DNA of 23,040 nt from a virus. Positions 5,605 through 23,040 of the stretch are shown here, one piece after another. The notes beneath the pieces are model-generated. The model was not told the origin of the DNA. It searched no databases and saw only the letters and a list, made by a program, of their open reading frames with translations. The stretch is taken from IMG/VR virus record IMGVR_UViG_3300048023_000464, positions 1 to 23,040 of that record; one strand, given 5' to 3'. Numbering within the stretch: the stretch's first letter is position 1; every line of letters begins with the position of its first letter. Both the position numbers and the translations under genes were made by a program.

Positions 5605-5613
5605 GGATATTTG

Positions 5614-6996: not shown

Positions 6997-6999
6997 CAC

Positions 7000-7007
7000 A
7001 CTAAATA
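7000..7007 (+). promoter_or_regulatory. T4-like late promoter motif (ACTAAATA)
   Basis: ACTAAATA lies three bases after the preceding stop and 23 bases before the ATG at 7031. It resembles the T4 late promoter TATAAATA, which is read by the phage sigma factor gp55. It is one of seven such motifs in the window, all in gaps of 24-47 bases. Confidence 0.6.
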
Positions 7008-7030
7008 TGTATAGCAGATGGACACAGTAA

Positions 7031-7663: not shown

Positions 7664-8154
7664 TGGCAAGCGTATTAAAAGTAGATCAACTACAAGGTGT
7701 ATCAACAGCCTCAAGTGTACACATTCCAGGACATATAATACAGATACAAAGAGCTAGTATAGGTGGTAATATTTCGACCTCATCTACTACTCCGGTTGCT
7801 AGTGGTTTACAATGCAGTATAACTCCTTTATATTCCACAAGTTTAATTCAAATTAGATTACTTGGTGGAAGAAGTTACGTTGCCGCTAACCAACAATTAG
7901 ATGTAAGTCTTTACAAAGATGGTTCAAATGTAAACACAGTTGGAACTGGTCGTTGGGAATCTATGTATACAAATGGAACAGATCATCATCACGGAGGTTA
8001 CTCAGCATGTTGGTTTGAAACAGCAGGCAACACCAGTGCAAGAACATACGAACCTTATTTTGATGTTGGATCAGGAACAGGGTATTTTACTAACAGCCCA
8101 GGTGGAAATAATGAATACTTGGTACATCTTGTAATAAGTGAGATCGCACAATGA
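7663..8154 (+). CDS. Small fibre/head protein, SxLKVDxLQ family, copy 1
   Basis: 163 residues. I choose the ATG at 7663, which shares its A with the previous stop, rather than an upstream in-frame ATG at 7648 inside the previous gene. The N-terminus ASVLKVDQLQGV...HIPGHIIQIQRA is shared with the next two genes. The rest is a beta-rich head of about 120 residues with a His/Tyr/Trp-rich patch (DHHHGGYSACWFE). Proteins that begin S-x-L-K-V-D-x-I/L-Q are common small fibre or head-decoration proteins in marine phages (family knowledge). The head differs from those of copies 2 and 3, so the three probably share an attachment module but not a binding surface. Confidence 0.72.
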   Translation: MASVLKVDQLQGVSTASSVHIPGHIIQIQRASIGGNISTSSTTPVASGLQCSITPLYSTSLIQIRLLGGRSYVAANQQLDVSLYKDGSNVNTVGTGRWESMYTNGTDHHHGGYSACWFETAGNTSARTYEPYFDVGSGTGYFTNSPGGNNEYLVHLVISEIAQ

Positions 8155-8633
8155 GTACACTCAGCGTAAACAATATTGTTGAAAAAACAACAAGTCATGG
8201 TGTAAAAATTCCGGGACATGTTGTTCAGGTCGTACAACATGTTTTTTCTCCTGTAATAAGAGCGGCAAGCGGTAGTACAAGTTTTTCAGCTACAAATATT
8301 TCAGGTGCAATTACACCAAAATACAACAACAGTAAAATACTAGTAATGGTTTCAACAACAGGTAACAATAATAATACAGATGATACAACTTGTATTGCTA
8401 CCATCTACAGAGGCAATACAGACTTGAGTGGACAGACTCAAGGTATGTGTGTAGTTGAGACTAGAGGTGCTAGGTCACACGGAGCAATATCTATGAATTA
8501 TTTAGATGATCCTCAAACAACAAATGCAACTACATACAGTGTTTATTTTAGATCAAGCACTGGGTCAACAGTTGAAATACCCTTTTCTGAATACGAAACT
8601 GCCACACTTATATTACAAGAGGTTGCACAATGA
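8151..8633 (+). CDS. Small fibre/head protein, copy 2
   Basis: 160 residues; the start overlaps the previous stop as ATGA and its own stop overlaps the next start the same way. The N-terminal module STLSVNNIVEKTTSHGVKIPGHVVQVVQH aligns with copy 1, including IPGH(I/V)(I/V)Q. The head (TNISGAITPKYNNSKILVMVS...EIPFSEYETATLILQEVAQ) ends like copy 1 (ISEIAQ versus LQEVAQ), so copies 1 and 2 are full-length paralogues. It is beta-rich with no signal peptide or membrane segment. A fibre-tip or decoration role is inferred from family and context. Confidence 0.72.
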   Translation: MSTLSVNNIVEKTTSHGVKIPGHVVQVVQHVFSPVIRAASGSTSFSATNISGAITPKYNNSKILVMVSTTGNNNNTDDTTCIATIYRGNTDLSGQTQGMCVVETRGARSHGAISMNYLDDPQTTNATTYSVYFRSSTGSTVEIPFSEYETATLILQEVAQ

Positions 8634-9133
8634 GTACACTAAAAGTAGATAATATTCAACACACCAACGGTACAAGTGCTATGTCGATTGACACAGCTGG
8701 AAGAATACTTACTCCAGCAAGACCTACTTTATTTGCTGATATGCACAATGGAAGTAGTGCGGCTTACGATACTATACAAAATATGTCTGTTGTTCCGTAT
8801 AGAAGAGTTATATCTGGTTCTGGAATTACATTAAGTACTGGGGTTTTTACAATTCCTATTACAGGTTTTTATCAAATTAATGCAACAATATTAAATAATA
8901 ATTTAGAAGACCTTGAACTAGCTCTTACAGTTGGTGGTACTAGTTCTAGTAATATTATACTTAGAGCTTTCTCAAATGATGATAACAGATTTGTTAATCT
9001 TCATATGGCATTACAGTTAAATGCAAATGATGCTTGTAGAATAATAAACGCTTCTGGCGGTGCTAGAGGATTTCATAGAAACACAGATGCAACTGACAGG
9101 TACAGTGCATTATCCGTTTACTTAATCGGATAA
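8630..9133 (+). CDS. Small fibre/head protein with C1q-like head, copy 3
   Basis: 167 residues; ATGA overlap with copy 2. The N-terminal STLKVDNIQHTNGTSAMSID is the attachment module shared with copies 1 and 2. The head from about residue 31 (RPTLFADMHNGS..., then SGITLSTGVFTIPITGFYQINATIL) has the order of strands and the G-x-F-x-I-P-x-x-G-x-Y signature of C1q/TNF-like jelly-roll heads. Such heads are found in phage fibres and usually trimerise. So the third gene swapped its head for a different fold while keeping the N-terminus. The stop codon lies inside the next late promoter motif. Confidence 0.72.
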   Translation: MSTLKVDNIQHTNGTSAMSIDTAGRILTPARPTLFADMHNGSSAAYDTIQNMSVVPYRRVISGSGITLSTGVFTIPITGFYQINATILNNNLEDLELALTVGGTSSSNIILRAFSNDDNRFVNLHMALQLNANDACRIINASGGARGFHRNTDATDRYSALSVYLIG

Positions 9134-9136
9134 ATA
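9129..9136 (+). promoter_or_regulatory. T4-like late promoter motif (GATAAATA)
   Basis: GATAAATA overlaps the upstream TAA stop (9131-9133) and stands 22 bases before the ATG at 9159. It matches T4 TATAAATA in seven of eight bases. The downstream gene has AAGGA at 9146-9150. Confidence 0.65.
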
Positions 9137-9158
9137 TTGGTATCAAAGGAATATACGA

Positions 9159-9551
9159 ATGACAGATATAGCACAAGCATTAACTGAACTAGGCATTACA
9201 GAATGGGTCTTAAGAGGAAAACCCACAAGCAAAGAAGAATTTGCCAGTATGTATGCCAAAGTAACAGGTGCAGACGCTAATGGTACAGCAATAGAAAGCA
9301 CAGCAGAAAGTGATTGGGGTTGTACTTGGGAAGATGTAAAAGCAAAAGCAGATGAACTTCTAGCCGCAGAACCTATGCGTTTATTGAGAGAAGAACGCAA
9401 TCGTAGAATTGCTACAAGCGACTGGATGGCTAACAGTGACGTTACAATGGCTGATGATTGGAAGACATATAGACAAGCACTCAGAGATATTACAGAATCA
9501 GCAACTAGTTTAGATGATGTAACATGGCCCACTGAACCAGGAGCAGGATAA
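9159..9551 (+). CDS. Phage tail assembly chaperone-like protein
   Basis: 130 residues from ATG, with AAGGA eight bases upstream. The C-terminal half (about residues 74-125) follows the pattern LREERNRRIATSDWM, DDWKTYRQALRDIT and VTWPTEP. This is the signature of the phage tail assembly chaperone family (Pfam Phage_tail_APC type), which usually sits beside tail fibre genes. The N-terminal half (AQALTELGITEWVLRG, then EEFASMYAKV and a Trp/Glu-rich helix) is a divergent helical part. The protein is mostly helical and charged, unlike the beta-rich fibres around it, so it fits a non-virion assembly factor. It shares one base (TAATG) with the following fibre gene, which suggests that gene is its client. 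Confidence 0.75.
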   Translation: MTDIAQALTELGITEWVLRGKPTSKEEFASMYAKVTGADANGTAIESTAESDWGCTWEDVKAKADELLAAEPMRLLREERNRRIATSDWMANSDVTMADDWKTYRQALRDITESATSLDDVTWPTEPGAG

Positions 9552-10243
9552 TGCCCACAAGTAAGAATTTTGAACTAGGTAGTTTTGCAGGAAATGTTGA
9601 TCACGATCCAAGTACTGGTGATACAGAAATTTCCAACAATATTACACTAACAGGTGAACTCAGAGGTCCGAGTACATTTATTATTGACCCAGCTGGCATA
9701 GGTGATAACACAGGTCTATTACAAGTTAAAGGTAACTTGCAAGTAGATGGCACTACAACTACAATTAACAGTACAACACTAGATGTAGATGATAAAAACA
9801 TCACTATAGCTTCAGGATCCCCAAATGCGGCATCGTCAGATGGAGCAGGATTAACAGCAGACTTAGGTGTTGACGGAACAGCAACATTTACATATGACGC
9901 CGCCAATGACCGCTGGACAATGAATAAATCTTTGTTTGCAACCATCGAAGGTATGAGCATAGATGACCTCACAGACGTTGATACAACTACAAATGCTCCT
10001 ACAACTGGGCAAACTATTGTGTGGGATGGCGCCAAATTTGTACCTGGAGATAGCTTCAGTCAAGCAGAATTTGATACATCATTTGCGGCGAAAAATGTAG
10101 GAGATCTCAATGATGTTGATACTACTGGAGTTGCAGACGGACAAGTTTTAGTATATAGTTTAGCAAATAGTAGATTCGAACCAGGCACCGTAAGCGGCGG
10201 AGGCGGCGGTGGAAGTGGGTTGTTTGCCTTGTTAGATTTTTAA
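9551..10243 (+). CDS. Tail fibre segment protein
   Basis: 230 residues, starting within the previous stop codon. The order is a short leader (FELGSFAGNVDHDPSTGDTEI), NLQVDGTTTTINSTTLDVDDKNITIASG, a D-R-W-T-M-N-K unit, and two DLxDVD...GQ(T/V)(I/L)V(W/Y)...(F/R)xPG units. It ends in a run of seven glycines and GLFALLDF. This is nearly the same module order as the middle of the 2261-3772 protein, so it looks like a shortened relative that lacks the terminal beta units. The sharp Gly-rich hydrophobic C-terminus may be a joint or tip. Its coupling to the chaperone-like gene suggests co-assembly. Confidence 0.72.
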   Translation: MPTSKNFELGSFAGNVDHDPSTGDTEISNNITLTGELRGPSTFIIDPAGIGDNTGLLQVKGNLQVDGTTTTINSTTLDVDDKNITIASGSPNAASSDGAGLTADLGVDGTATFTYDAANDRWTMNKSLFATIEGMSIDDLTDVDTTTNAPTTGQTIVWDGAKFVPGDSFSQAEFDTSFAAKNVGDLNDVDTTGVADGQVLVYSLANSRFEPGTVSGGGGGGSGLFALLDF

Positions 10244-10249
10244 TAAATA
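10242..10249 (+). promoter_or_regulatory. T4-like late promoter motif (AATAAATA)
   Basis: AATAAATA overlaps the end of the upstream TAA (10241-10243) and lies 22 bases before the ATG at 10272. AAGGA at 10262-10266 serves the downstream gene. Confidence 0.6.
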
Positions 10250-10271
10250 ACTATAACATACAAGGAAGAAC

Positions 10272-10598
10272 ATGCCAGCATTTACGACATATAAAACATC
10301 AACTATTAACACTACTACAGGTACAACTTTAGTTACTTGTGGTGCTGGACAACACTTTTTACATAGTGCATATGTTACTAATGTCGAAGGCAGTGCATTA
10401 CCTATTACATTAGAAATAGTACATGCAGATACAACTGTGACACATGTTGCTCACAAGTTGAAGCTTTTTCCTAATGAAACAGTGGACTTGGTATCTCAAA
10501 ATAAAATATACTTACTAAATGGAGATGCCTTAAAAGTTAAAGCAGACAGAGCGAGTGCTTTTACTGTAACAGTCAGCTTATTAGACCAGGCGTTATAA
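10272..10598 (+). CDS. Small beta-rich protein of unknown function, probably virion
   Basis: 108 residues from ATG, with AAGGA five bases upstream. I do not recognise a named family. The sequence alternates hydrophobic and polar residues as in a compact beta sandwich (TLVTCGAGQHFLHSAYVTN, LPITLEIVHADTT, VKADRASAFTVTVSLLDQ). It has no signal peptide, no helix-rich part and no catalytic motif. Its place between fibre genes, right after a late-type promoter, argues for a small structural or connector protein. One base separates it from the next gene, so the two form a unit. Confidence 0.6.
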   Translation: MPAFTTYKTSTINTTTGTTLVTCGAGQHFLHSAYVTNVEGSALPITLEIVHADTTVTHVAHKLKLFPNETVDLVSQNKIYLLNGDALKVKADRASAFTVTVSLLDQAL

Positions 10599-10599
10599 A

Positions 10600-10878
10600 A
10601 TGACAATGAATAATTCAAGAACAGATAGTACAGGCGGTATATATACAGGAACACAATATGGTGATAAAACATTTTATGGTTTTAGATTCGATGGGTCAAC
10701 TGGAGATTTACAAATAGAAATCATTGATGCCAATGATGAAGATCCTATTGTAATACCTGATACCATTTATCCAGAGATAACGGATGCAAATGCATATGTT
10801 CAACACTTTTGGAGTATTGATGCTATCGAGTTTGATATCGATAGTTCAGGTCATTTAAGGATGAAGTTTTTATCATGA
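10600..10878 (+). CDS. Small acidic protein of unknown function
   Basis: 92 residues from ATG at 10600, one base after the previous stop; a second ATG at 10606 is an equally possible start. The protein is acidic (EIIDANDEDPIVIPD, DAIEFDIDSSGHL) and opens with GGIYTGTQYGDKTFYGFRFDGSTGDLQIE. No family is recognised. The context is the late-expressed fibre region directly before the giant adhesin gene, so a fibre accessory or connector is possible but unsupported by a motif. Confidence 0.55.
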   Translation: MTMNNSRTDSTGGIYTGTQYGDKTFYGFRFDGSTGDLQIEIIDANDEDPIVIPDTIYPEITDANAYVQHFWSIDAIEFDIDSSGHLRMKFLS

Positions 10879-10885
10879 GGACTGG

Positions 10886-10893
10886 CATAAATA
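10886..10893 (+). promoter_or_regulatory. T4-like late promoter motif (CATAAATA)
   Basis: CATAAATA matches T4 TATAAATA in seven of eight bases. It lies in a 47-base gap, the longest among the late units, 32 bases before the ATG of the 1579-residue gene. The same eight bases recur at 15661. Confidence 0.68.
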
Positions 10894-10925
10894 CATTTAG
10901 TAAATTTAAAGACAGGACGCAATAA

Positions 10926-13900
10926 ATGGCTACGATTATAGACCTCGGAAAACTTAGATTTCACTTTGCAGGCACCTATGATGCCGCAACAGAATATGAA
11001 ATGAATGATATCGTCAAGTACGGCGGTAATGTTTATGTATATGCCAATGTGGTTAAGAGTACAGGAAACATTCCTACTAATAACGCATATTGGACATTAA
11101 TGATCGAAGGCTTCAAGTTTAGATCTGAATATGACGCGGCAACGCAATATCGTGTAGGCGATGGTGTTACACACGGTGGTAAAGTATATATTTGTGTATT
11201 AGATACACAAGGAAACACTCCTCCGAATCCAACATACTGGAGTCAATTTGCAGACGGTATTCAATGGGAAGGTGACTTCAACATTGCAACTGCATATCAA
11301 AAGAATGACCTTGTAAAATACGGGTCTCAGGTCTATATTGCAAAACAAGATACAACAGGTAATGCGCCAACAGATACAAACAACTGGGACAAATTTGTTG
11401 AAGGTATTAGTGCTGAAGGTGTATACAACTCAGCCTCTACATATCAACCAGGAGATTTAGTAGCATACGGTGCAAACATTTACAGATGTACACAAACATC
11501 ATTAGGTAATTTACCAACAAACCTTGCATACTTTGAAATTTTTAGCACAGGTAATGATTATCAAGGCGAATGGAATACTAGTTCTAACTACAGAGTTGGT
11601 CAAACAGTACGCTATGGCGGAAATGTTTATAGAGCAAAAGTTGACAATGTAAATACACAACCTGACACTAACACAACAGAATGGGAAGTGTTCAGTACTG
11701 GTGTGAGAACCAGAGGCGATTGGGCTACAGCAACCGACTATGCAATTAATGATATTGTTGCATATGGAGGTAACACATATGTTGTTTTAGAAGGACACAC
11801 TTCAGGTGTATTTGCAACAGATTTAGCCGCAAATAAATGGCAAAAATTTAATAGCGGTGTACGCTATATGGGCATATGGACAATTGGCGTCGACTATAAA
11901 AAAGACGATATTGTTAAAAACAGTGTGAGTACATATATTGCAAAAATAGATCATACAGCCGGCGCAGACTTCTTTATTGATTTGAACACAAATAATTATT
12001 GGGATGAATTTGTTGCAGGTGCTAGTTATGTGCTTCCAAATACAGCAGGTAATGCTGGTAAGTATCTACAAACACCAGATGGTTCAACATACAGTTGGCA
12101 GTTTAGTGGTGAAAATGACAAAATTTTCTATGTAAGTGAAGACTCAACTAGTAGTGCTGATGATGTAAATCACGGTGCGGCTATTGACTATGCGTTTGCT
12201 AGTGTTAGATATGCATGTGATTATATTAATGCAGACGTAGCAAACAGAACACCAGCTACAATTTTTATCAAAGACGGAACTTATAGTGAAGTGCTTCCGA
12301 TACATATTCCACCAAATGTTACTATTGTTGGTGATGGACAGCGTAACTGTATCATTCAGCCAGCGGCTGGTAATGGAGACAACGGTGTACCTAACGCAGA
12401 AGAAACTATGTTTTATGTGAACACAGGTACAATGATTGAGGGTGTAATTTTAAAAGGCTTAACAGGATTTAGTCTTGGCACTCCTGGAGATCCACTAACT
12501 AGTACAGTAAAAGGTTGCTATTTTAGATTAGAACCAGGTTCTACAATACTTAAATCACCTTACATCAAAGAATCAAGTGCGTTCTCAACTGGAGGCGTAG
12601 GTGCTATTGTTGATGGATCGGTTGTTGCCTCAGGCACAGCGGGTAGTATGGTGTTTCACACATTTACACAAGTGCATGATGGCGGTATTGGCTTTTGGGT
12701 AAGCAACAACGGATTGAGCGAGATTGTTTCTTGCTTTACTTACTACTGTGATTACGGATACGCAACAACAGGCGGCGGTAAGATTCGTGCATTGAACGGA
12801 AACAACAGTTATGGTATGTATGGTGCGTTGAGTGCTGGATATGATACAAACGAAGTAGCCGCAGATGGATATATCTATGGTGATACACTAACTTATACTA
12901 GAGCATCACTTAATACTACTGACGGGTTTACTGTGGGAGATAAAGTTACTCATGGTACAACAACTACAAACAAACCAGCAACAGCGGTAAGCATTGAACC
13001 AAACATGACCATTACTACTGCAAAAGATGCAACGGTGTCAGCAGTAACACAAGCTAACCCAGCAAGTGTAACAGCTACAGCTCATGGATTTGCAACAGGG
13101 CAGTCAATTAGTTTTGCAGGCGTAGTTGGAATGACAGAACTTAATGGTAACAGTTATACAATTACAGTAGTAGATGCAGACACATTTACACTAGATGGAA
13201 CAGACAGTAGTGGATTTACAGCATACACCAGTGACGGTACAGCAACACTAGGCGGAGCACACGGCTTTGCAGACGGTGATATGATGGCATTTAAAGACGT
13301 ACTGCCAAATGATTGGGCAAAGACATTAGGTAGTCATGGCACAGCTAGCATGTACAATAGAACTTGGTATGTTGATGTTGTTGATTCAACAAGTTTTAAA
13401 GTTTGTACAAACCCAGACTTAACAAATTATTTTGATAGTAGTGCAATTAATGGGTGGAGTACAGTAACAGAAGTAATTGCTGATGCTACTAGAAGTAATC
13501 CAGTTATCTTAACAATAACAGGACACGGATATAGTAACGGACAGGAAGTAAAAAATATTACTGGCGTAGTTGGTATGACAGAACTTAACAACAATACATA
13601 CTATGCAAATAATGTAACAGCGAACACAATTGAATTGTTCAGTGATGCTGGCGTAACAACTTCATTAGATGGTACTGGATTTGGTGCTTATGTAAGTGGC
13701 GGTACAGCAAGTAGACTTATTACAGGTACATTATTTACAAGTGGAACAATGATACATTACGGTGCAACTACATCGGAAATTGCAAATATTCAAACAAACA
13801 TTCAGCCAGCGGCTAATCACAGATTAGTTGTAAACAATACAAGAAAAGGTTATACAGGTAAAACAGTTAAAGTATCAGTAGTTGATGCAGGACACGGACT

Positions 13901-15665
13901 TGGAAATCAATATGTGTTTGATGGGGAACTACTTGGTTCACATAAAATGGATACACTACATAGACTGTATATCTTTGAACAGAACGATGACAGTAATGAT
14001 GGACACCCACTGTACTTTAGTGAAACACAAGACGGCATTCATAATGGTGGAACAGAATTTAATCCAGTTAAAGATGCTATAACAGGACTAACAGGAAGTG
14101 CAGTTGAATACTACTTAGATGGTGCCAAAGTAGCTGATTTAGCCGCATACGCCTCTGGATTTAATGCCGCAACCAACAGAGAAGTTTGGATTGTAGGAGC
14201 GGCTCCAACAAGTAACAAACTTTACAGTGTATGTTATAGTCATCCAGGAATGGGTGGTGGTACTAGTTATACAGCTACAAGTGCTACATACGAACCAACA
14301 ACTGGTATTATGACAATGGATATCGGAACGCACGGATTGAATGTTGGTGCTAACCTTGAAATATCACAAGACAGTATGATTTGGACTTGTGCTCAGGACA
14401 GTCACGGAACAAATCACACATATCCAAGAGCAACAGACCCTGCTAAGAATAGTGTGTTTGTAAAAGTTATTCAAGCAACCAGCACCACAGTTACAGTAAA
14501 TGTTGGAATAAGCAGTAATGTTTCAGATCATATATTTGTAAGTGCAACAGCAGGTGCAATTCACACAGCATACAGTGATAAACCAACTATTGTGTATACT
14601 ACAACTACACAACACAGTTTAGCTGACTCCCATTGGGAAAGATTCTCTGGTATGTACAGGACAGAACTAGTAGCCAATGGAACAAGAATTACTGCTGACG
14701 ATGGACAGTATGCAGATTTAGCAATAGACGGATCAAAAGGTCAGCATGGATTTAGCCTTGTACTAGCAGGACTTAGTGAAATACCAAGACCAGGTGCAAG
14801 TATTGAATTTGTGTCAGGTCCTACATACTCACCGGCAGACAACACAGATATAACTGCAACACAAAATGTTGGCTTAGATACAGTAAGTTACATTGTATCA
14901 AACGTTAGTGGATATCAAGCTAGCACTGATCCTACAGTACTAGGTACATGTACAATTACTATTGCTACAGAAAAGCCAGTTACTAGTGATACATATTACG
15001 GACAAAGATTTAAGTTAAGATATAAGTATAGTCAGACACGATTAACAGGACATGACTTCCTAAGCATTGGTACAGGTGGTAGAGCAACAACCAACTATCC
15101 AGGAGAACCTACCCAACCAGCGGCTCAAGGACAAGAAGTTACAGAGACATATCCAGGTCGTGTTTATTATGTAAGTACAGACCAAGACGGTAACTTTAGA
15201 GTTGGTAACTACTTTAGAGTTGACCAATCAACTGGTAGAGCTACATTGGATGCTAGTGCGTTTGACCTAAGTGGTTTGACAAGTTTGAGATTGGGTAGCA
15301 TCGGTGCTCAGTTAGGTGAAAGTATTAATGAATTTAGTGCAGATGGTTCACTTAGTGGTAACAGTAATACAGCGGTTCCAACAGAGCAAGCTGTTAAAAC
15401 ATACGTTGATTCACAAACACAAGTTGCAATCGCGGCGGCTAACAATGCTAAATTGTCTGCACCGTTTGATATAGCTGATACAACTAGAAATACTGCTGGT
15501 CAACTTGTTGGTACCACTAACGAAACAGTTCAATATAGTAATATTACATACGATTCAAGTAGTAATATTACAGGTTATGAGGAACTATCAACAACTGGTG
15601 TAACCAAAACTGTAGCGGCTACTTACTCATCTGATGGCAAAGTATCCACTGTAACGGTGACATAA
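10926..15665 (+). CDS. Giant tail fibre/adhesin with carbohydrate-binding-like repeats and beta-helix
   Basis: 1579 residues from ATG, with AGGA eight bases upstream. Residues 12-365 are seven tandem repeats of about 50 residues. Each has a Trp or Tyr near the start, then x-Y-x-x-(G/N)D-x-V-x-Y-G-G-x-x-Y, then G-x-x-P and W-x-x-F-x-x-G, resembling chitin-binding type-3 (CBM5/12-like) modules. Residues about 396-660 look like a pectin-lyase-type beta-helix (PATIFIKDGTYSEVLPIHIP, NVTIVGDGQ). Two units around residues 711-775 and 857-930 follow HG(F/Y)..G......GV.GMTELN..(S/T)Y, similar to the E1 FCCH-like repeats reported in phage proteins. The C-terminus (YPGRVYYVSTDQDGNFRVG, then FDLSGLTSLRLGS, then VPTEQAVKTYVDSQ) is typical of large structural proteins in marine T4-like phages. 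It is probably a long host-recognition fibre or baseplate spike with glycan binding; catalytic activity cannot be claimed. Confidence 0.8.
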   Translation: MATIIDLGKLRFHFAGTYDAATEYEMNDIVKYGGNVYVYANVVKSTGNIPTNNAYWTLMIEGFKFRSEYDAATQYRVGDGVTHGGKVYICVLDTQGNTPPNPTYWSQFADGIQWEGDFNIATAYQKNDLVKYGSQVYIAKQDTTGNAPTDTNNWDKFVEGISAEGVYNSASTYQPGDLVAYGANIYRCTQTSLGNLPTNLAYFEIFSTGNDYQGEWNTSSNYRVGQTVRYGGNVYRAKVDNVNTQPDTNTTEWEVFSTGVRTRGDWATATDYAINDIVAYGGNTYVVLEGHTSGVFATDLAANKWQKFNSGVRYMGIWTIGVDYKKDDIVKNSVSTYIAKIDHTAGADFFIDLNTNNYWDEFVAGASYVLPNTAGNAGKYLQTPDGSTYSWQFSGENDKIFYVSEDSTSSADDVNHGAAIDYAFASVRYACDYINADVANRTPATIFIKDGTYSEVLPIHIPPNVTIVGDGQRNCIIQPAAGNGDNGVPNAEETMFYVNTGTMIEGVILKGLTGFSLGTPGDPLTSTVKGCYFRLEPGSTILKSPYIKESSAFSTGGVGAIVDGSVVASGTAGSMVFHTFTQVHDGGIGFWVSNNGLSEIVSCFTYYCDYGYATTGGGKIRALNGNNSYGMYGALSAGYDTNEVAADGYIYGDTLTYTRASLNTTDGFTVGDKVTHGTTTTNKPATAVSIEPNMTITTAKDATVSAVTQANPASVTATAHGFATGQSISFAGVVGMTELNGNSYTITVVDADTFTLDGTDSSGFTAYTSDGTATLGGAHGFADGDMMAFKDVLPNDWAKTLGSHGTASMYNRTWYVDVVDSTSFKVCTNPDLTNYFDSSAINGWSTVTEVIADATRSNPVILTITGHGYSNGQEVKNITGVVGMTELNNNTYYANNVTANTIELFSDAGVTTSLDGTGFGAYVSGGTASRLITGTLFTSGTMIHYGATTSEIANIQTNIQPAANHRLVVNNTRKGYTGKTVKVSVVDAGHGLGNQYVFDGELLGSHKMDTLHRLYIFEQNDDSNDGHPLYFSETQDGIHNGGTEFNPVKDAITGLTGSAVEYYLDGAKVADLAAYASGFNAATNREVWIVGAAPTSNKLYSVCYSHPGMGGGTSYTATSATYEPTTGIMTMDIGTHGLNVGANLEISQDSMIWTCAQDSHGTNHTYPRATDPAKNSVFVKVIQATSTTVTVNVGISSNVSDHIFVSATAGAIHTAYSDKPTIVYTTTTQHSLADSHWERFSGMYRTELVANGTRITADDGQYADLAIDGSKGQHGFSLVLAGLSEIPRPGASIEFVSGPTYSPADNTDITATQNVGLDTVSYIVSNVSGYQASTDPTVLGTCTITIATEKPVTSDTYYGQRFKLRYKYSQTRLTGHDFLSIGTGGRATTNYPGEPTQPAAQGQEVTETYPGRVYYVSTDQDGNFRVGNYFRVDQSTGRATLDASAFDLSGLTSLRLGSIGAQLGESINEFSADGSLSGNSNTAVPTEQAVKTYVDSQTQVAIAAANNAKLSAPFDIADTTRNTAGQLVGTTNETVQYSNITYDSSSNITGYEELSTTGVTKTVAATYSSDGKVSTVTVT
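10959..12020 (+). repeat. Seven tandem ~50-residue carbohydrate-binding-like repeats
   Basis: Repeat boundaries in protein residues are about 12-62, 63-111, 112-160, 161-209, 210-259, 260-311 and 312-365. Conserved positions are a Trp/Tyr at the first strand, D-x-V-x-Y-G-G/S/A-x-x-Y in the centre and an aromatic-x-x-F-x-x-G end. The DNA copies are strongly diverged. The seventh is the most degenerate: it lacks the YGG core and has a longer loop. Confidence 0.75.
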
Positions 15666-15668
15666 ATA
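15661..15668 (+). promoter_or_regulatory. T4-like late promoter motif (CATAAATA)
   Basis: CATAAATA encloses the TAA stop (15663-15665) of the giant gene and stands 25 bases before the next ATG. AGGAA at 15682-15686 is the ribosome site of the downstream gene. Confidence 0.68.
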
Positions 15669-15693
15669 CAATAGGAAGAATAGGAAATTATAA

Positions 15694-17163
15694 ATGGCAG
15701 ATATACTAGTACATAATGCAATAAAAGACATAGAAGCGGCTATTAATCAAGGCTCGTCTAAAATTAATTATGGTCCTATGTTGGGAAAAACTTTAAAATT
15801 GTATATTAAAGATATTATTGATGCTAATGCAACTGGTCCATATGGTACGCCAGGCGGCGGAGCTGGTAATGCAACACAGCCCATTTGTGATTTGTCAAAT
15901 TATTTGAAAATCTCATATTGTTTGTGTGCTTATGCTGGATCTGGTACTAGTTGTACTGATACTTTTTACAACTGTCCTGTAGGTTGTCCAAGTGGATGTT
16001 ATAGTGTTTGGAGAGATAAAACAGTGCTTCCAGGAAATCCAGGCGGTTCGGCTGTTGGTAAATCAGACGTAAGAACATTTATACTTAATGTAGAATCAAG
16101 TAATAACGGTTTAAAAGTACTAGAGGCAATTTATACTGCTTCAACTACTGAAGTTGAAAACGACATGTATCTTGCGTATTTGGGCTTAAAAGCAGACTAC
16201 GAAGCCGCGGCAGATGACGATGTGTTATTTGCTTGGTATGGCATCGGCGGCAGTTATCCACAAGGATCTAGAATTAGTAATACAGATTACATTAAAGTAT
16301 GTGGCGGTAGTTGGATGAACGGAGAAGGTGCAAACTGTACATGGCAAGTACCAGCAGGAGCCACTTGTGCTAGATTCCAGTTATGGGGTGCAGGACAAGG
16401 ATCAAATCCAGGATGTTGTTGTGGCGGTTCGCCAGGCGGCTCAAACGGTGCATACACTGAGATGACAATTAAAGTTACACCAGGTGATTCATACACAATT
16501 TGTGCAGGATGTGCCCAAAACGGTTGTTGTTGTAGTGCATATACTCCAGCATATGGTTGTATGAGTTATGTTACTGGAAACGGAATCTGCTGTTTGAAAG
16601 CAGACGGAGAATTTTGTTACAACACAAACTGTGAAAGTTTTAGATGTGTTAAAGTTTGTACTGGATCAGCAGGCGGTGGATGTTGGTATTGGGGAAGCCA
16701 ATACTGTACTAACTCAGGACACTGCTGGTGTTCGCAAGGTGAATATTGTGCAGTAGGTTGTAGCACCTGTGGTGTTGTACCAGTATATGCTAACTGTTGG
16801 ACAAGTGGAGGTGGACAGTTCTGTAACTGTGCTACTACAGCATGTGACATTGCAGGAATGACTGGCGAAACTATGGGAATGAGAGGATTAATTGGCGGTG
16901 GTTGCTTTGATACTAACCACTACGGTTATCACATTAGACCACCAATCGTTCATGCAGACACTGGATTAATGTTTTCGGATACATGTGGTTGTTATTGTCA
17001 ACAAATGCAAGGCGGTTCATGTTGTGGTGGTGTATATGCAATCAGCTGGGGTGCCCACCCAGGTCATGGCGGATTTGCTACACATGTTATGGGCGGAGCA
17101 AATCAGTTTTATGGTATGCCTGGCAAAGGCGGAATGGTACAGGTATCATGGGTAACAACGTAA
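15694..17163 (+). CDS. Cysteine- and glycine-rich fibre/adhesin protein, paralogue 1
   Basis: 489 residues from ATG, with AGGAA seven bases upstream. I count 42 cysteines (8.6%), against very few in the neighbours. The N-terminal 60 residues (MADILVHNAIKDIEAAI...) are helical and cysteine-free. The middle contains a VENDMYLAYL unit. From residue about 208 a Gly-rich scaffold begins (CTWQVPAGATCARFQLWGAG, NPGCCCGG, TIKVTPGDSYTICAGC), homologous to the 5614-6996 protein but loaded with Cys. Further motifs are YGCM, TGNGICCLKADG, GEYC, CSTCGVVP, GGGCFDTN, GSCCGG and HPGHGG. There is no signal peptide. The arrangement is not a simple zinc-finger repeat. A disulfide-stabilised or metal-binding fibre tip is an inference; the function is unknown. 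Confidence 0.75.
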   Translation: MADILVHNAIKDIEAAINQGSSKINYGPMLGKTLKLYIKDIIDANATGPYGTPGGGAGNATQPICDLSNYLKISYCLCAYAGSGTSCTDTFYNCPVGCPSGCYSVWRDKTVLPGNPGGSAVGKSDVRTFILNVESSNNGLKVLEAIYTASTTEVENDMYLAYLGLKADYEAAADDDVLFAWYGIGGSYPQGSRISNTDYIKVCGGSWMNGEGANCTWQVPAGATCARFQLWGAGQGSNPGCCCGGSPGGSNGAYTEMTIKVTPGDSYTICAGCAQNGCCCSAYTPAYGCMSYVTGNGICCLKADGEFCYNTNCESFRCVKVCTGSAGGGCWYWGSQYCTNSGHCWCSQGEYCAVGCSTCGVVPVYANCWTSGGGQFCNCATTACDIAGMTGETMGMRGLIGGGCFDTNHYGYHIRPPIVHADTGLMFSDTCGCYCQQMQGGSCCGGVYAISWGAHPGHGGFATHVMGGANQFYGMPGKGGMVQVSWVTT

Positions 17164-17166
17164 ATA
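17159..17166 (+). promoter_or_regulatory. T4-like late promoter motif (CGTAAATA)
   Basis: CGTAAATA encloses the upstream TAA (17161-17163) and lies 21 bases before the next ATG. It keeps the TAAATA core but differs from TATAAATA in the first two bases, so it is the weakest of the set. Confidence 0.5.
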
Positions 17167-17187
17167 TATTAAAGGAACGGATAAACA

Positions 17188-18597
17188 ATGGCTGACATTA
17201 TAGTACAAAATGCAATTTCTAAGGTAGAAGCCGCTATTTCAGCAGGTGCCAGCGGTATTGATTACAAAGGTGTGTTTGGCATATCTTTACTTGATAAAGT
17301 TAAACAACTTATCGAAGCAAATGAAACAAGTGGATTATACAGCATAGGCGGCGGTTCAGGCGGTAGATACTTGTGTGATTTGTCTAATCATTGTTATATG
17401 TCACTATGTCAATGTAACTACTCAGGTAGTGGACAAAACTGTAGTTGTGTATATGTTACCAGCAATGTATGGACAGACGGAGTAATTTTAAGTTCTTCAG
17501 GTAGTACGCCTACAAAATCAGATGTAAGAACAAAATTTGTATCACTAGATTCACTTTTATCAGCAGTTTATGACATTGGAACAACAGACGTAGAAAACGA
17601 TTTATATTTTGCATATTTGGCGGCAAGACCAACATATGTAGATGGTTCTAATACAAATATTAAGCAGTACTGGTATGGAGTAGGTATTCCACCAGGATCA
17701 GGCTCGCCACTCAGTGCGACAAATAAAATAAAAGTTTGTGGAACAAACTGGCAATATGGCGAAGGCGGAACATGTACATGGACTGTACCAGTTGGTGCAT
17801 CAATGGCTAAATTCCAAGCATGGGGTGCAGGCGGCGGTTCCAATCCAGCATGTTGCTGTGGAGGCGCTGTTTTTGGCGGAACTGGAGCATATGCAGAGAT
17901 GGTAATTAATGTTACACCAGGTGACACATACACAGTATGTGCTGGTTGTAGTTGTCAAAGATATTGTTGTAGTAACACAGATCCAGGATATGGATGTATG
18001 AGTGGTGTAACAGGAAATGGTATTTGCTGTTTCAAAGCAGACGGATCACACTGTTATCAAGTTAGTTGTATTGCGTTAGACTGGTTGAGAGTAGCTAGTG
18101 GTGCACCAGGTATGCCAGGTGGTAACTGTAGAAGATTCCAAAATCCATACTGTACAACTTCAGGACCATGCTTTTGTAGTTATGGTGAATATTGTTTTGA
18201 TAACAGTTGTAGTACTTGTGGTGTTGTTCCTATATTGATAGAATGTTGTAACTATCAAACTTATTGTAGCTGTGCAACAACAGCCGCAGTAGTTTCAGAT
18301 GGGACATGTAACGGCGGGTATAGAAGTTTAATAGGCGGTGGTTGCTTTGACACAAACAACTACGGATGGCATACTAGACCACCAATACTTGATTCAGATA
18401 CTGGCTTAGTATTTGGTTGTACTCAAGGTTGTTCATGTGCATATTTTGACAGTGGTACATGCTGTGGAGGCTGTAATGGTAGAAACTGGACTTATCATCC
18501 TGGGCATGGCGGTTCATACACACATGTTATGGGCGGTACAACTTATCACAAAGGTGATACAGGACGAGGCGGATTGGTACAAATATCATGGAGCTAA
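17188..18597 (+). CDS. Cysteine- and glycine-rich fibre/adhesin protein, paralogue 2
   Basis: 469 residues from ATG, with AAGGA at 17172-17176. I count 40 cysteines (8.5%). It aligns end to end with the preceding protein: MADI(L/I)V start, T(E/D)VEND(M/L)Y(L/F)AYL, CTW(Q/T)VP(A/V)GA, CCCGG, YT(I/V)CAGC, TGNGICC(L/F)KADG, GEYC, CSTCGVVP, GGGCFDTN, CCGG, HPGHGG and THVMGG. Most cysteines sit at the same aligned positions, while the loops between them differ. The conserved Cys framework with variable loops suggests selection on a fixed scaffold carrying changeable surfaces. It has its own late-type promoters before and after it, so the two paralogues can be made separately. The function is unknown beyond a probable fibre or adhesin role. 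Confidence 0.75.
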   Translation: MADIIVQNAISKVEAAISAGASGIDYKGVFGISLLDKVKQLIEANETSGLYSIGGGSGGRYLCDLSNHCYMSLCQCNYSGSGQNCSCVYVTSNVWTDGVILSSSGSTPTKSDVRTKFVSLDSLLSAVYDIGTTDVENDLYFAYLAARPTYVDGSNTNIKQYWYGVGIPPGSGSPLSATNKIKVCGTNWQYGEGGTCTWTVPVGASMAKFQAWGAGGGSNPACCCGGAVFGGTGAYAEMVINVTPGDTYTVCAGCSCQRYCCSNTDPGYGCMSGVTGNGICCFKADGSHCYQVSCIALDWLRVASGAPGMPGGNCRRFQNPYCTTSGPCFCSYGEYCFDNSCSTCGVVPILIECCNYQTYCSCATTAAVVSDGTCNGGYRSLIGGGCFDTNNYGWHTRPPILDSDTGLVFGCTQGCSCAYFDSGTCCGGCNGRNWTYHPGHGGSYTHVMGGTTYHKGDTGRGGLVQISWS

Positions 18598-18600
18598 ATA
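18593..18600 (+). promoter_or_regulatory. T4-like late promoter motif (GCTAAATA)
   Basis: GCTAAATA encloses the upstream TAA (18595-18597) and stands 29 bases before the ATG at 18630. Its TAAATA core is preceded by C, as in the motif at 7000. Confidence 0.55.
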
Positions 18601-18629
18601 TGTTTAATAAAGAAATGAAGGAAAATTAA

Positions 18630-19397
18630 ATGGCAGATGTAGAAATTAAATACACATTCAAAATACCAGATGAGCCGTATATCAATGATTTTTCTGGTGG
18701 AAAAACCAAAGAATTCACCTATATCGGCCCAGATGTACTTACAGTGACTTGTCCAAACGATAATAATGGATTTACGTCACCGTATACACAAAGTTTAACG
18801 GGACCTGTTTATGATGGTGAAATATCAGTAGACATTGATGTAACAGCAAATCCAGAGCTTTTACCTATAGCAGATTTGTTATGGGGGGCACAGCCTGACG
18901 CTGAAGCAACATTCGACGAAGAAACACTCGAAGATGGTACAAAGTATCTAGAACAAAACAATAGAACAATACATGATTATTATTGGAAACCAAGAGGCGA
19001 GTTAAATGATGACGGATCTTTTAAAGGTTGGATTTTAGACGATGATAATGTAGCTATCTTAAGTATGTTCGAAAGAGATGCATTATCTCCAAAGCAAAGA
19101 ACTTACCTAGGAAAAGCTGATATGTTCATCGAAATCTTAGATCAATTTGATTTGCCTGATGACGAAGCGGCACTACTTACTGCTTATAAAACAGCGGTAG
19201 AAACGTATCGTAGCAAAACAGCATTGCCTTGGAAATATCCAAATTCTAATCCAGTAGATGCTGAAGCACCTAAGATGCCAATGCAGTTAGTGAGCAGAAG
19301 AAATGAAATCAAAGCCGCAGGCTTAGATGACTTGAAAAAAGAAGATGATGCTGACACTAATGCAACTCCTGGTGTTGGTCACGGCGAAGCAAACTAA
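18630..19397 (+). CDS. Acidic protein of unknown function, possible fibre assembly factor
   Basis: 255 residues from ATG, with AAGGA seven bases upstream. I do not recognise a family. The first 85 residues are beta-like (VEIKYTFKIPDEPYIND, LTVTCPNDNNGFTSPY, GEISVDIDVTANPE). Residues about 100-220 are helical and charged, with two Trp-rich spots (YYWKPRG and ALPWKYPN). The tail is acidic and disordered-looking (KKEDDADTNATPGVGHGEAN). The beta domain plus helical part and the YRxKxxxPWKYP stretch loosely recall tail fibre assembly proteins, and it follows two probable fibre-tip genes, so a chaperone role is a weak inference. It is the last gene of the late-promoter series. Confidence 0.6.
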   Translation: MADVEIKYTFKIPDEPYINDFSGGKTKEFTYIGPDVLTVTCPNDNNGFTSPYTQSLTGPVYDGEISVDIDVTANPELLPIADLLWGAQPDAEATFDEETLEDGTKYLEQNNRTIHDYYWKPRGELNDDGSFKGWILDDDNVAILSMFERDALSPKQRTYLGKADMFIEILDQFDLPDDEAALLTAYKTAVETYRSKTALPWKYPNSNPVDAEAPKMPMQLVSRRNEIKAAGLDDLKKEDDADTNATPGVGHGEAN

Positions 19398-19450: not shown

Positions 19451-19483
19451 GCAATTATGTATTCATAAAAATTGGAGCAAATT

Positions 19484-20530
19484 TTGTTAAAGAAAAAAGC
19501 CTTTTTTATTAATGGAGGTGCAGGTAGAGTCTTATGTGCTATACCAGCTCTCGAATACTATAAACAAAACACAGATGAATCTGTAGTTATAGTAGCTGAA
19601 GGATGGCACGAACTATTTTTTGCAAGTGCAATTCTCAGAGAAAACGTATACCCTGTGGGACATAAAAATTTGTTCCGTGATTTATTAAAAGATAGAGAGA
19701 TCGTAAGTCCTGAGCCTTATAGACTCAACGCTTACTTTAATCAACAGTGTAACATGATACAAGCATTTGATATGCTTATCAACGGAACTACTGATGAGAT
19801 TCCTGAAACTAAATCTATGGAATTAAGTATTAGTAGAAACGACCAAGCATTCGGATATAATACGGTTGCAGAAATTAAAAAACATTCAGGTAAACAAAAA
19901 GCAGTTGTGTTTCAACCGTTAGGTAGCGGAGCAAAACTGAATGGTGAATTTTTAATTGATGAAAGTGGTAGGAGTATTGAACTTAATGATATCATAACTA
20001 TGACCAAAGAGCTTGCAAAACATTATGCAGTTATAATGATGACTAATGTAAAGATACCAGCACAAGAAGCAATGGGAGCGGCTATACCACAAGCAAATCT
20101 ATTGCAATGGATGGGTATTGTAAAAGCAAGTGATTATTTCTTAGGTTGTGATAGTATGGGACAACATTATGCTCATGCATTAGGCAAACCTGCTACGGTT
20201 ATTATTGGATCAACATTTCCTCAGAATATAAGTTATACTAATACTAAAAACTTTACTATTATTGATAACGGTAAAGACAAAGGTAGAATATACAATCCAT
20301 TTAGAATTACAATGGACTTTGATTCTGAAAGAGCTAATGAGGATTCTATGGTAATGACTGAGAAACAAGTTAAAGATGTGATTAAAACTGTTACTAATAA
20401 ACTTGGTCTTACTAAACAAACTCCTATTGATCAGAAAAAATTCGACCACATACAAAATAAAATTAATAACCTTGGCAAAGAAAATGCAAAAACACAAGCC
20501 CCATTGGCAGTGTTAAATCAACAAAAGTGA
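19484..20530 (+). CDS. Family 9-like (heptosyltransferase-type) glycosyltransferase
   Basis: 348 residues from a TTG at 19484. GGAG at 19474-19477 sits six bases upstream; the earlier in-frame TTG at 19472 overlaps that ribosome site and has none of its own. The N-terminus AFFINGGAGRVLCAIPALEYY is a Rossmann-type donor of GT-B enzymes, with the Gly-rich loop near residues 10-14. The C-terminal half has VVFQPLGSGAKLNGEF and a GCDSMGQHYAHALGKPATVIIGS block (from about residue 221) like the donor-binding D-S/T-x-x-x-H-x-A-A/H-x-x-G-K-P region of family 9 heptosyltransferases. The last 60 residues are a polar Lys/Asn/Gln-rich tail. It probably moves a sugar onto a phage or host glycan; the donor and acceptor are unknown. 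The carbamoyltransferase follows after seven bases. Confidence 0.75.
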   Translation: MLKKKAFFINGGAGRVLCAIPALEYYKQNTDESVVIVAEGWHELFFASAILRENVYPVGHKNLFRDLLKDREIVSPEPYRLNAYFNQQCNMIQAFDMLINGTTDEIPETKSMELSISRNDQAFGYNTVAEIKKHSGKQKAVVFQPLGSGAKLNGEFLIDESGRSIELNDIITMTKELAKHYAVIMMTNVKIPAQEAMGAAIPQANLLQWMGIVKASDYFLGCDSMGQHYAHALGKPATVIIGSTFPQNISYTNTKNFTIIDNGKDKGRIYNPFRITMDFDSERANEDSMVMTEKQVKDVIKTVTNKLGLTKQTPIDQKKFDHIQNKINNLGKENAKTQAPLAVLNQQK

Positions 20531-20537: not shown

Positions 20538-22418
20538 ATGTCAGACCATGACCAAGAAGGTATCTACAGAGTAGTGCGAACAAATACTACTCGAAAACAA
20601 ACTGGCTATATTTTAGCTATTGCAAGAGGACACAATGGCGGCGCCTGCTTGCTTAAAGATGGTAAAATTGTTTTTAGCATCGAAGAAGAAAGATTAAGTA
20701 GAAGAAAATATGATGGCGGGCCGTTTGCCGCTATGGTAAAAACTTTAGATTATACAAATAGAATTGATGCCTTAGTTATTGCACATACCCAATCACTTAT
20801 TGAAACTGCCGCCACAGTTGATTATGCTGGAGATGATGTATATAGTGGAATGGCTAGAAAACTTGGACTTATCGATCCTAAATTAGAAAGCGGATACAAG
20901 ACTACACATCCGCAAGTATATGACCTGTCTGGAATACATCACAAACTACATGCTTCTTGTGCATTTTATCGTAGTGGCTTTGATAAAGCAGTTGCAGTTA
21001 TAGCAGATGGAGCAGGAACATTTTATCCACTTAATAATGAAAAACAAGCTATAGTAGGTTATGAGGTTGAAAGTATTTTTACCTGCGAGTATCCTTCTAG
21101 TATTAATACTATATACAAACACATGGGTACTACTGATATTAAAACCTTTTATCAAGGTCCTATTATGTTAGAAGATCCATTAACTGGTCAAGAAAGTCTT
21201 GAGGTCTTAATCTCTGATCGTGCTGGTATTACGAAAACATACGAAGCTGTAACTGATTATTGTGGATTTGCTGAAATCGAAGCAGGTAAGACAATGGGAT
21301 TGTTTCCATACGGTAAGCCTAATGATAATATTCCTCCATTATATGAACAATATGGAGAAAATCGACTTTCTAGTAGATCTATGTTTGTGCCTAACTATCC
21401 AAATGGCGCATTTGTAAACAATGGATTATATTCAGCATTGCAATCATTTGATGATGATCCTGACGTGATTCAAAATGTTAATCACATGAGACCTGATCTT
21501 ACAAAACTACAAAATCGTAGAGATATGGCTTATGCAGTACAAACACAATCGCAAGAAGAAATGGTTAACATTATACGCAAAGCAGTAGACAGTACTGGAT
21601 GTAATAATGTTGTTATAAGTGGCGGATACGGTCTTAACTGTGTTGCAAATTATCATTATCTAGAAGCACTTAAAGACCAAGACATTAACATTTATGTTGA
21701 ACCTGTAAGTAATGATGCTGGTACTGCAATGGGTGCCGCATTGTATTATCATCACCATATAACACAATCAATGGAAAAGACACCACAAACACTTTACTTA
21801 GGGCCTGCTTACTGCTACAATCAAGAAGATATTGATTCTCTTGCAACAGAATATGATGCAACTGTTAGTGATGCTTCACAAGAAGATATTATTGATTTGT
21901 TAGAAAAAAGAGAGATTGTTAGCATCTTCCAAGGACGTTGTGAAAATGGACCTCGAGCATTAGGCAATAGAAGTATATTGTATGATCCAAGAGACCCAGA
22001 CGGTAAAGATCATGTGAATGAAATAAAAAGAAGAGAATACTTTAGACCATTTGCTGGAACTATACTTGCTGAAGATGTACACGATTGGTTTGATTTACGT
22101 GGTATGCAAGACAGTCCGCATATGATGTATGCAGTTAACTGTCAGCAAGGAGTAGAAGAAAAGATTCCGGCTATTATACATGTTGACGGAACATGTAGAA
22201 TACAAACAGTAACTGAAGAAGAAAATCCAAACTACTACAATTTAATCAAAGCGTGGAAAGAACGTACTGGTGTTCCTGTTATATTCAACACTAGTTTTAA
22301 CTTAGGCGGAGAGCCATTGGTTGAAACATTAGAAGATGCATTATGGACATTGCAACAAAGTGATATTGAATATTTGTATCTTCCTGAATATGGTAAGTTA
22401 ATTACTACTAAGAACTAA
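20538..22418 (+). CDS. NodU/CmcH/TobZ-family carbamoyltransferase
   Basis: 626 residues from ATG, with GAGG at 20529-20532. The family normally transfers a carbamoyl group from carbamoyl phosphate, through carbamoyl-AMP, onto a hydroxyl of a sugar or antibiotic. The N-terminal Kae1-like domain is clear: ARGHNGGACLL and SIEEERLSRRKYDG (about 29-60), the metal-binding H-x3-H in HHKLHA (His134, His138), ADGAG, SGGYGLNCVAN, and SNDAGTAMGAA with Asp393. The C-terminal YrdC-like domain starts near residue 462 with FQGRCENGPRALGNRSILYDPR, followed by FRPFAGTIL and FNTSFNLGGEPLV. All family hallmarks are intact and the length is normal. Carbamoyltransferases are frequent in marine T4-like phages. Paired with the glycosyltransferase, it probably decorates a glycan on the virion or host. 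Its end overlaps the convergent bilin reductase gene by 11 bases. Confidence 0.93.
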   Translation: MSDHDQEGIYRVVRTNTTRKQTGYILAIARGHNGGACLLKDGKIVFSIEEERLSRRKYDGGPFAAMVKTLDYTNRIDALVIAHTQSLIETAATVDYAGDDVYSGMARKLGLIDPKLESGYKTTHPQVYDLSGIHHKLHASCAFYRSGFDKAVAVIADGAGTFYPLNNEKQAIVGYEVESIFTCEYPSSINTIYKHMGTTDIKTFYQGPIMLEDPLTGQESLEVLISDRAGITKTYEAVTDYCGFAEIEAGKTMGLFPYGKPNDNIPPLYEQYGENRLSSRSMFVPNYPNGAFVNNGLYSALQSFDDDPDVIQNVNHMRPDLTKLQNRRDMAYAVQTQSQEEMVNIIRKAVDSTGCNNVVISGGYGLNCVANYHYLEALKDQDINIYVEPVSNDAGTAMGAALYYHHHITQSMEKTPQTLYLGPAYCYNQEDIDSLATEYDATVSDASQEDIIDLLEKREIVSIFQGRCENGPRALGNRSILYDPRDPDGKDHVNEIKRREYFRPFAGTILAEDVHDWFDLRGMQDSPHMMYAVNCQQGVEEKIPAIIHVDGTCRIQTVTEEENPNYYNLIKAWKERTGVPVIFNTSFNLGGEPLVETLEDALWTLQQSDIEYLYLPEYGKLITTKN

Positions 22419-22427
22419 CTTCAGGAA
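22381..22427. repeat. Inverted repeat spanning the convergent gene ends
   Basis: TTCCTGAA (22381-22388) and TTCAGGAA (22420-22427) are perfect 8-base inverted copies around a 31-base loop that contains both stop codons. An alternative inner stem, AAGTTA (22395-22400) with TAACTT (22416-22421), overlaps it. There is no T-tract, so a bidirectional terminator is possible but weakly supported. Confidence 0.3.
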
Positions 22428-23040
22428 ACAAACAATCTTGAATAAAATGTCGTATATCATCTGGATCAAGCCCTAGTGCTTCCATAGCTTTGGGTGTATG
22501 TGGGTTTTGTTTCTGGTAATGACAGTATCTGTTTTGTTTACGTTTGATTTGATCTACATCTAATGTATTACTAGTGTATTTAGGTAGTTCTTCAAAGTAC
22601 ATGTCTAGATTATCTAATGCCATAGTTACAACTTGATCCATTTCATCTACTTTTACATTACTTGCGGCTACCATATGTTTACTGAATATAGCTTGAGCCC
22701 AAGGAGGAAGTTCACGTTCTTTCTTCCATTCTAAATCTTGTACACAATCTCTAAACAAATGACACATAGAATGTTCCCAATCTACAGTAGGTGAATAGTC
22801 ATGGAAAGCACCAGTAACTTTGTTTTTACCTGCTATAATATCAAATCCGTATATAGGAGCATCATTGTCAAACTTTGGAAATACACATATATGAGTCATA
22901 TACAAACCTTTCGAGTCTCTGGCATCTACACTGTCTATATGTGCTCGTCTAAAATGTTCACCTTGGTATACTTTATTAAGCCAATCGAACTCTGGATCGT
23001 CAAAATTTTCTTTTCCTAAACTAGCACATTTCGCAATAAT
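22408..23040 (-). CDS. pcyX: Ferredoxin-dependent bilin reductase, PcyX-like, N-terminus beyond window
   Basis: 210 residues are visible to the TAG at 22408-22410. The frame stays open to the right edge, so the TTG near 22905 is internal and about 20-45 N-terminal residues are missing. The fold family reduces biliverdin IX-alpha to phycobilins with ferredoxin electrons. FRRAHID, THICVFP, APIYGFDIIAGKNKVTGAFHD and RELPPWAQAIFS, and near the end NRYCHYQKQN, align along PcyA. The catalytic His-x16-Asp pair of PcyA (His88/Asp105) is kept as His50 and Asp67 of the visible fragment. The position of PcyA Glu76 (in HLE) is Asp36 here (in HID), with two extra residues before the His. That Glu-to-Asp change with a retained Asp/His pair is reported for phage PcyX, which makes phycoerythrobilin. 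PcyX is therefore the best call; a PcyA or other clade member remains possible. Confidence 0.9.
   Translation of the reverse strand: MIAKCASLGKENFDDPEFDWLNKVYQGEHFRRAHIDSVDARDSKGLYMTHICVFPKFDNDAPIYGFDIIAGKNKVTGAFHDYSPTVDWEHSMCHLFRDCVQDLEWKKERELPPWAQAIFSKHMVAASNVKVDEMDQVVTMALDNLDMYFEELPKYTSNTLDVDQIKRKQNRYCHYQKQNPHTPKAMEALGLDPDDIRHFIQDCLFPEVSS

Follow-up and report, generated by a model that had tools for sequence, protein, structure and literature searches.

The window considered here is the whole of IMG/VR record IMGVR_UViG_3300048023_000464, 23,040 bases of viral DNA, and carries at its right edge most of a bilin reductase gene, pcyX (22408..23040, minus strand, codons 15 to stop). With near-identical contigs prolonging the record on both sides, this gene appears as part of a split bilin pathway, in which an alaS-pcyX operon stands on the right and hemO, in an operon of tail-fibre genes, on the left. 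That the three enzymes serve a common route from glycine to a bilin is the explanation that we favour with good confidence.

The open frame at 22408-23040(-) comprises 210 residues and runs off the right end, its first 14 codons lying beyond the record. It matches PF05996 at 22423-22977(-) (8.1e-23, 75 bits for a cut-off of 31). Contig L002 contains the complete gene, whose product of 224 residues is 100% identical over the part visible in the window. The visible residues Asp36 (in the HID motif), His50 and Asp67 are Asp50, His64 and Asp81 of the complete protein; they are invariant in a 21-row alignment of phage sequences and occupy the columns of Glu76, His88 and Asp105 of Synechocystis PcyA. 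The initial annotation had claimed that the His-x16-Asp pair of PcyA is kept and that Asp replaces Glu76, and both the alignment to PcyA and the invariance across phages bear this out. Comparison with solved structures points to the same enzyme as did that annotation. The best match is PcyX_EBK42635 (PDB 5OWG; 1.3e-59), a phycoerythrobilin synthase from marine viral metagenomes that has the same Asp at the Glu76 column and the same His and Asp, and PcyA comes next at 9.9e-16 at best. The predicted structure (pLDDT 88.9) also has 5OWG as its top match (target TM 0.88), followed by PcyA entries with similar E-values. In a tree of 65 bilin reductases, whose output warns of long branches, the window group (24 distinct sequences) is recovered as a clade at 100/100, on the side of PcyX (95/93); 5OWG pairs with the gene of Pelagibacter phage Mosig EXVC030M at 100/100. 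Synechocystis PcyA and five cyanophage PcyA make up a separate group (98/88). PebS of P-SSM2 falls outside, on a very long branch, so that no grouping with PebS is seen, and the expected placement on the PcyX side of such a tree holds. Altogether, sequence, tree and structural model support the identification of 22408-23040(-) as PcyX, the product of which is probably phycoerythrobilin.

Overlapping contigs give access to the sequence beyond both ends. Three contigs, L002, L003 and L004, continue the record on the right, with identities of 99.5, 99.7 and 99.9% in the overlap, and all three have alaS directly upstream of pcyX, with a 4-bp overlap where the alaS stop and the pcyX start read ATGA. 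A heme oxygenase gene had been expected on this side; alaS is found there instead, and hemO lies 1.1 kb off the left end. There, L084 and L086 overlap the record at 99.88% and 99.86% over 4,869 bp. Base 1 of the window is base 7663 of these loci and hemO (6001-6534) ends 1,128 bp before it; its neighbours are a subtilase-like gene and, towards the window, the fibre-region gene that opens the latter. Near-identical records thus place hemO about 23 kb from pcyX in the window population, and it is for a population that the linkage of the window, hemO and alaS holds.

A scan for pcyX gave 42 loci, 32 with at least 70% identity (near copies included) and 10 more distant. In the 32 near loci the upstream neighbour of pcyX is alaS in 29 cases and hemO in three (L019, L030 and L032), and hemO stands upstream in 10/10 of the more distant loci. 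The frames of alaS and pcyX overlap by 4 bp in 24/29 loci and by 8 bp in 5/29. When the whole records of the 42 loci and that of Mosig were searched with PF01126, hemO was detected in 17/43. These are Mosig itself, all 10 of the distant records, the records holding L019 and L032, and four with alaS-pcyX. At L030 a hemO fragment adjoins pcyX but was missed by this search. In the four alaS-pcyX records, of 47, 82, 38 and 198 kb, hemO lies about 20, 24, 33 and 39 kb from pcyX.

Ferredoxin-dependent bilin reductases (FDBRs) were sought in 50 of 76 hemO records. One is present in 42/50, and seven of the other eight are window-type records by identity. A 45-row HemO tree, which took every second locus of L091-L161 together with some selected ones and came with a long-branch warning, places window-type hemO in a 100/100 clade of six among hemO genes of other phages. 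The hemO genes of L019 and L032 fall elsewhere (99/99), with L040 on a long branch and a gene from a metagenome-assembled genome (MAG). The pcyX genes of L019, L030 and L032 lie inside the alaS-linked group, beside L016, with moderate support (90/73). Because the HemO tree sets L019 and L032 apart while their pcyX falls in the alaS-linked group, the hemO found beside pcyX and the hemO of the fibre operon would differ in origin. Two features of other hemO loci may be mentioned. A small gene that we take to be ClpS-like directly precedes hemO-pcyX in L036, L041, L043, L111 and L115, and L115:6539-8032, between hemO and the FDBR gene, encodes a protein of 497 residues presumably resembling a flavin-dependent halogenase.

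The two partner enzymes are recognised by homology and keep catalytic residues of their families. AlaS matches TIGR01821 with 542.4 bits (cut-off 338.55) and keeps the pyridoxal phosphate lysine in 28/28 sequences. The position of the heme-binding His342 is occupied by Arg in 16/28, Lys in 11/28 and His in 1/28, and the last 15 residues contain no Cys in 29/29. Viral AlaS without heme-feedback sites are also reported in Wegner 2024 (PMC11480375). Among phage records, AlaS has no true match: 19 matches are below 60%, the best at 34.7%, and the named ones are BioF or ketobutyrate CoA ligase. HemO matches PF01126 (2.9e-18, 66.9 bits for a cut-off of 23); the GDLSGGQ motif is kept and His12 aligns with His20 of HmuO, which we take to be the proximal heme ligand.

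In the proposed pathway, AlaS would make 5-aminolevulinate without heme feedback and host enzymes may carry it to heme. HemO would then open heme to biliverdin, and PcyX would reduce biliverdin by four electrons, presumably to phycoerythrobilin. The electrons would come from host ferredoxin, since none was found in the phage. The whole would take place late in infection.

The timing is suggested by motifs related to ATAAATA, which we take to be the T4 late-promoter consensus. Three late-promoter-like motifs stand on the plus strand of the window: AATAAATA at 10242..10249, 30 nt before the start of an open reading frame (ORF), and CATAAATA at 10886..10893, 40 nt before a fibre gene of 1579 residues, and again at 15661..15668, 33 nt before a gene of 489 residues. 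ATAAATA lies 20-50 nt before a start in 6/10 cases in the window population (a count on overlapping pieces, with at least two places counted twice), in 21/42 in the 198-kb contig, and in 7/10 and 7/9 in two others; for its 20 permutations the mean fractions are 0.10-0.14 and the highest 0.26-0.43. Motifs of this type are rarer than in single-base shuffles (4 in the window versus about 10.7); only their position before starts stands out. TATAAATA is found 148 or 163 nt before alaS in 18/28 loci. A motif also occurs 2.5-4.5 kb ahead of hemO in 10/11 loci, four of which are copies of one population, and in the four hemO loci checked it stands 24-29 nt ahead of the gene that opens the run leading to hemO, and hemO may be read from there. 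As T4-type late-promoter motifs thus precede both the hemO run and alaS, both operons may be late genes. An ORF of 61 residues, with a similar start in L002 (about 5553-5748) and L007 (about 7373-7568), begins 13 nt after TATAAATA and runs into the alaS start; it may be a conserved small gene, or else a leader.

Several observations weigh against a single split pathway. No hemO is found in most alaS-pcyX records, including some of 31, 42, 49 and 74 kb, all of them fragments. The window, hemO and alaS are joined by overlapping contigs of different samples and not on one molecule. The ferredoxin gene that the initial annotation proposed to look for gave no match to the 2Fe-2S family PF00111 in 29 viral records, mostly fragments (0/29, Mosig being positive), and the phycobiliprotein-type bilin acceptor PF00502 was likewise found in 0/30 records, mostly fragments. 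No late-promoter motif occurs within 400 nt of alaS in 10/28 loci. Finally, the 65-row tree covers cyanobacterial-type PcyA, and alphaproteobacterial PcyA, reported in Rockwell 2023 to group with PcyX as its sister, is absent from it; such an identity is disfavoured because of the Asp at the Glu76 column. As a separate observation, the 198-kb relative contains a ferredoxin-NADP-reductase-like gene beside its DNA polymerase (L227:7204-7902(-), 97 bits for a cut-off of 390). It was dropped as a candidate for electron supply, relatives being present in 87 IMG/VR stretches and not specific to pcyX phages.

What the phage would gain from the pathway is a distinct matter, and we see about even chances that it is the bilin itself, rather than control of heme or iron. 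The same enzymes could serve another purpose, as a heme valve or for iron salvage: AlaS would maintain the heme level as host expression declines, excess heme and biliverdin would be drained by HemO and PcyX with release of iron, and the bilin would be waste. The presence of alaS and pcyX, the entry and the exit of the route, in one overlapping operon is what such a coupling would need, and an iron supply is named as a possibility in Wegner 2024 (PMC11480375). However, extra 5-aminolevulinate gives no help in salvaging iron and a four-electron reductase makes a costly drain, so that we regard this purpose as possible and somewhat doubtful.

It is unlikely that the reductase is a PcyA making phycocyanobilin, as in phage CB_2 from Crystal Bog, whose very large genome (527 kb) likewise combines alaS, hemO and an FDBR gene (Wegner 2024, Chen 2020). 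The best NCBIfam model for the window protein is indeed that of PcyA (NF002760), with 94.3 bits, under its cut-off of 206, and the CB_2 enzyme is a PcyA by assay (Wegner 2024, PMC11480375). However, 5OWG is far ahead among the solved matches and the tree sets the window group apart from cyanobacterial-type PcyA. Moreover, the Asp at the Glu76 column is the PcyX-specific Asp55, if position 63 of the 5OWG chain is mapped to it by assuming an 8-residue tag, and this Asp is absent from the CB_2 enzyme, whose gene forms a broken cassette with hemO (Wegner 2024, PMC11480375). The column is Asp in 21/21 distinct alaS-linked sequences, in 3/3 hemO-linked near relatives, in 8/8 distinct more distant hemO-pcyX sequences, in Mosig, 5OWG and one MAG sequence, and in 18/18 distinct FDBRs from other hemO records (30 FDBRs retrieved out of 42 present). 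It is Glu in 5/5 cyanophage PcyA and in 2D1E, versus Asp in the window. The Asp is reportedly not itself catalytic in PcyX, and reverting it is said not to have made a PcyA; it is therefore a marker and not a proof of PcyX. Three FDBRs of the MAG Rhodobacteraceae bacterium Water_Bin34 (L163, L164 and L165) have Lys at this column (HLK); they form a 100/99 group beside PcyX, and a hemO-like gene lies near one of them.

Since hemO belongs to a putative late fibre operon and the alaS-pcyX block flanks the same module, the pathway might also serve the virion, with late phycoerythrobilin bound to a virion protein, of the fibre for instance, in a pigmented or light-responsive particle; we hold this to be very unlikely.

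The nature of the carrier was approached through its head genes. The gp23 protein of the window population (L086) is 68.5% identical to that of PA5oct and 32-34% to that of Mosig; of the 2,493 records matched, 55 are at 60-80% and 2,438 under 60%. In a 12-row gp23 tree, the window phages group with PA5oct, Phosso, GAP32, Vibrio 2.275 and Salmonella 7t3, and this side is split from Mosig, S-RIM2, RB14 and ValKK3 at 100/100. The same best records as for gp23 are obtained with gp15 of the population (best 15 of 167 matches) and with the neck (best 40 of 71) and terminase (best 12 of 2,572) proteins of the 198-kb relative, among the matches listed, as well as with the terminase of L019. This relative, the longest, is an unclosed contig of 197,947 bp, the jumbo group being defined by genomes over 200 kb. 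Judged from these sequences, the carrier would be a marine phage of jumbo type that has PA5oct, Phosso and GAP32 among its relatives. Marine pcyX contigs have been assumed to derive from Mosig-like pelagiphages, as with those assigned by a gp13 tree in Wegner 2024 (PMC11480375), and Mosig gives the best phage-record match for both PcyX (48.8%) and HemO (43.9%). However, the gp23 identities, the 100/100 split and the agreement of gp15, neck and terminase make it highly improbable that the record is of this kind. Window-type gp23 is found in 4/7 window-clade records and in 0/37 records of other hemO-pcyX phages; these others are therefore probably of additional lineages.

By capsid protein, the nearest relatives are phages of Pseudomonas, Sinorhizobium, Vibrio, Cronobacter and Salmonella. 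The photosystem family PF00124 is found in 0/24 records, mostly fragments. Together with the lack of phycobiliprotein genes in partial records, this gives indirect support to the earlier suggestion of a host outside the cyanobacteria, and the phage may make its bilin in a non-cyanobacterial bacterium. In alphaproteobacterial genomes, an FDBR match was obtained in 2/385, above the cut-off in 1/385, and a scan of named bacterial genomes for AlaS gave seven loci, none titled Pelagibacter, some of which may be phage contigs in bins. The 198-kb relative also encodes an adenylosuccinate synthetase (L226:13961-15166(-)) above the PurA and below the PurZ cut-off, and at about 102-144 kb (L222-L225) a long run of proteins with 'APW...CC' starts, presumably recalling radical-SAM/SPASM proteins.

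The other parts of the window described here lie on the plus strand. It opens with the 3' part of a fibre-region gene of 1116 residues that directly follows hemO (2..2251), as deduced from the L084 and L086 overlaps and the ORFs. The tail-fibre module, which separates hemO from the pcyX block, follows (2261..19397), with phrog_18673 and phrog_677 (fibre/baseplate connector), the tail fibre phrog_9851 (1.3e-213) and some ORFs without a named family. A protein of 352 residues (19472..20530) matches phrog_8954, a family of unknown function (4.3e-128), with no Pfam or NCBIfam match, and adjoins in all near loci showing both a NodU/Nol-like carbamoyltransferase (20538..22418; PF16861 7e-61, PF02543 5.9e-25, phrog_1601 1.7e-165). 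The latter is convergent with pcyX, their 3' ends overlapping by 11 bp. The opposite strand of pcyX relative to the structural genes, here the fibre genes, had been correctly noted. Its description as lying next to glycan genes suits the carbamoyltransferase and does not extend to 19472-20530(+), which has no named family. Beyond alaS, and divergent from it, come two heptose genes, HldD-like and HldE-like, each scoring below its NCBIfam equivalog cut-off, then a weak 2-oxoglutarate-oxygenase-like match, a cupin, and NUDIX and gp15. HldD adjoins alaS divergently in 27/29 alaS loci, L010 and L021 having little or no upstream sequence. Within one and the same slot, the alaS-pcyX/HldD-HldE block is found in either orientation (L002-L033, 29 alaS loci): its pcyX end faces the carbamoyltransferase side in 14/29 and the NUDIX-gp15 side in 15/29, one locus of each class being inferred from the other flank. 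This variable orientation and the location in a variable fibre and glycan island would suit a functionless cargo gene, decayed or transient; this is hardly credible, as the frames are intact and the active-site residues invariant across the alignment.

As to known systems, PA5oct, Phosso and GAP32 share with the window phages gp23 (67-69%), related gp15, neck and terminase proteins, and NUDIX beside gp15. However, about 7 kb separate gp23 from NUDIX-gp15 in PA5oct, with no annotated bilin gene there, and in the window phages the equivalent slot contains fibres, hemO, glycan genes and alaS-pcyX. Mosig likewise combines hemO and pcyX in a T4-like phage, but the two genes are adjacent and near neck genes, the head genes are of the cyanophage/T4 side, and a 2Fe-2S ferredoxin is present. 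The valaS/hemO/pcyA-X cassettes of Wegner 2024 (PMC11480375) bring together the same three functions, with AlaS lacking the heme-feedback residues, and are described there as hemO-pcyA/X-valaS together, hemO with pcyA/X and valaS nearby, or valaS alone. By contrast, the window type has alaS and pcyX joined, hemO 20-39 kb away, and PA5oct-like carriers. In a limited, mainly open-access literature, no title or abstract was found on pcyX in PA5oct-like phages or on an alaS-pcyX operon with a distant hemO. Thus, the arrangement and the carrier appear new, whereas the enzyme is a further PcyX and the valaS/hemO/pcyX theme is already known.

Marine pcyX contigs were previously tied to pelagiphages, and an unrelated, PA5oct-like lineage is met here, in which alaS stands beside pcyX and a hemO of apparently different ancestry lies far away. 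The pathway would be complete though its genes are scattered and exchanged, a pattern that points to selection acting on the entire route between glycine and bilin. Such selection would make it a testable question why bilins are made by phages with non-phototrophic hosts.

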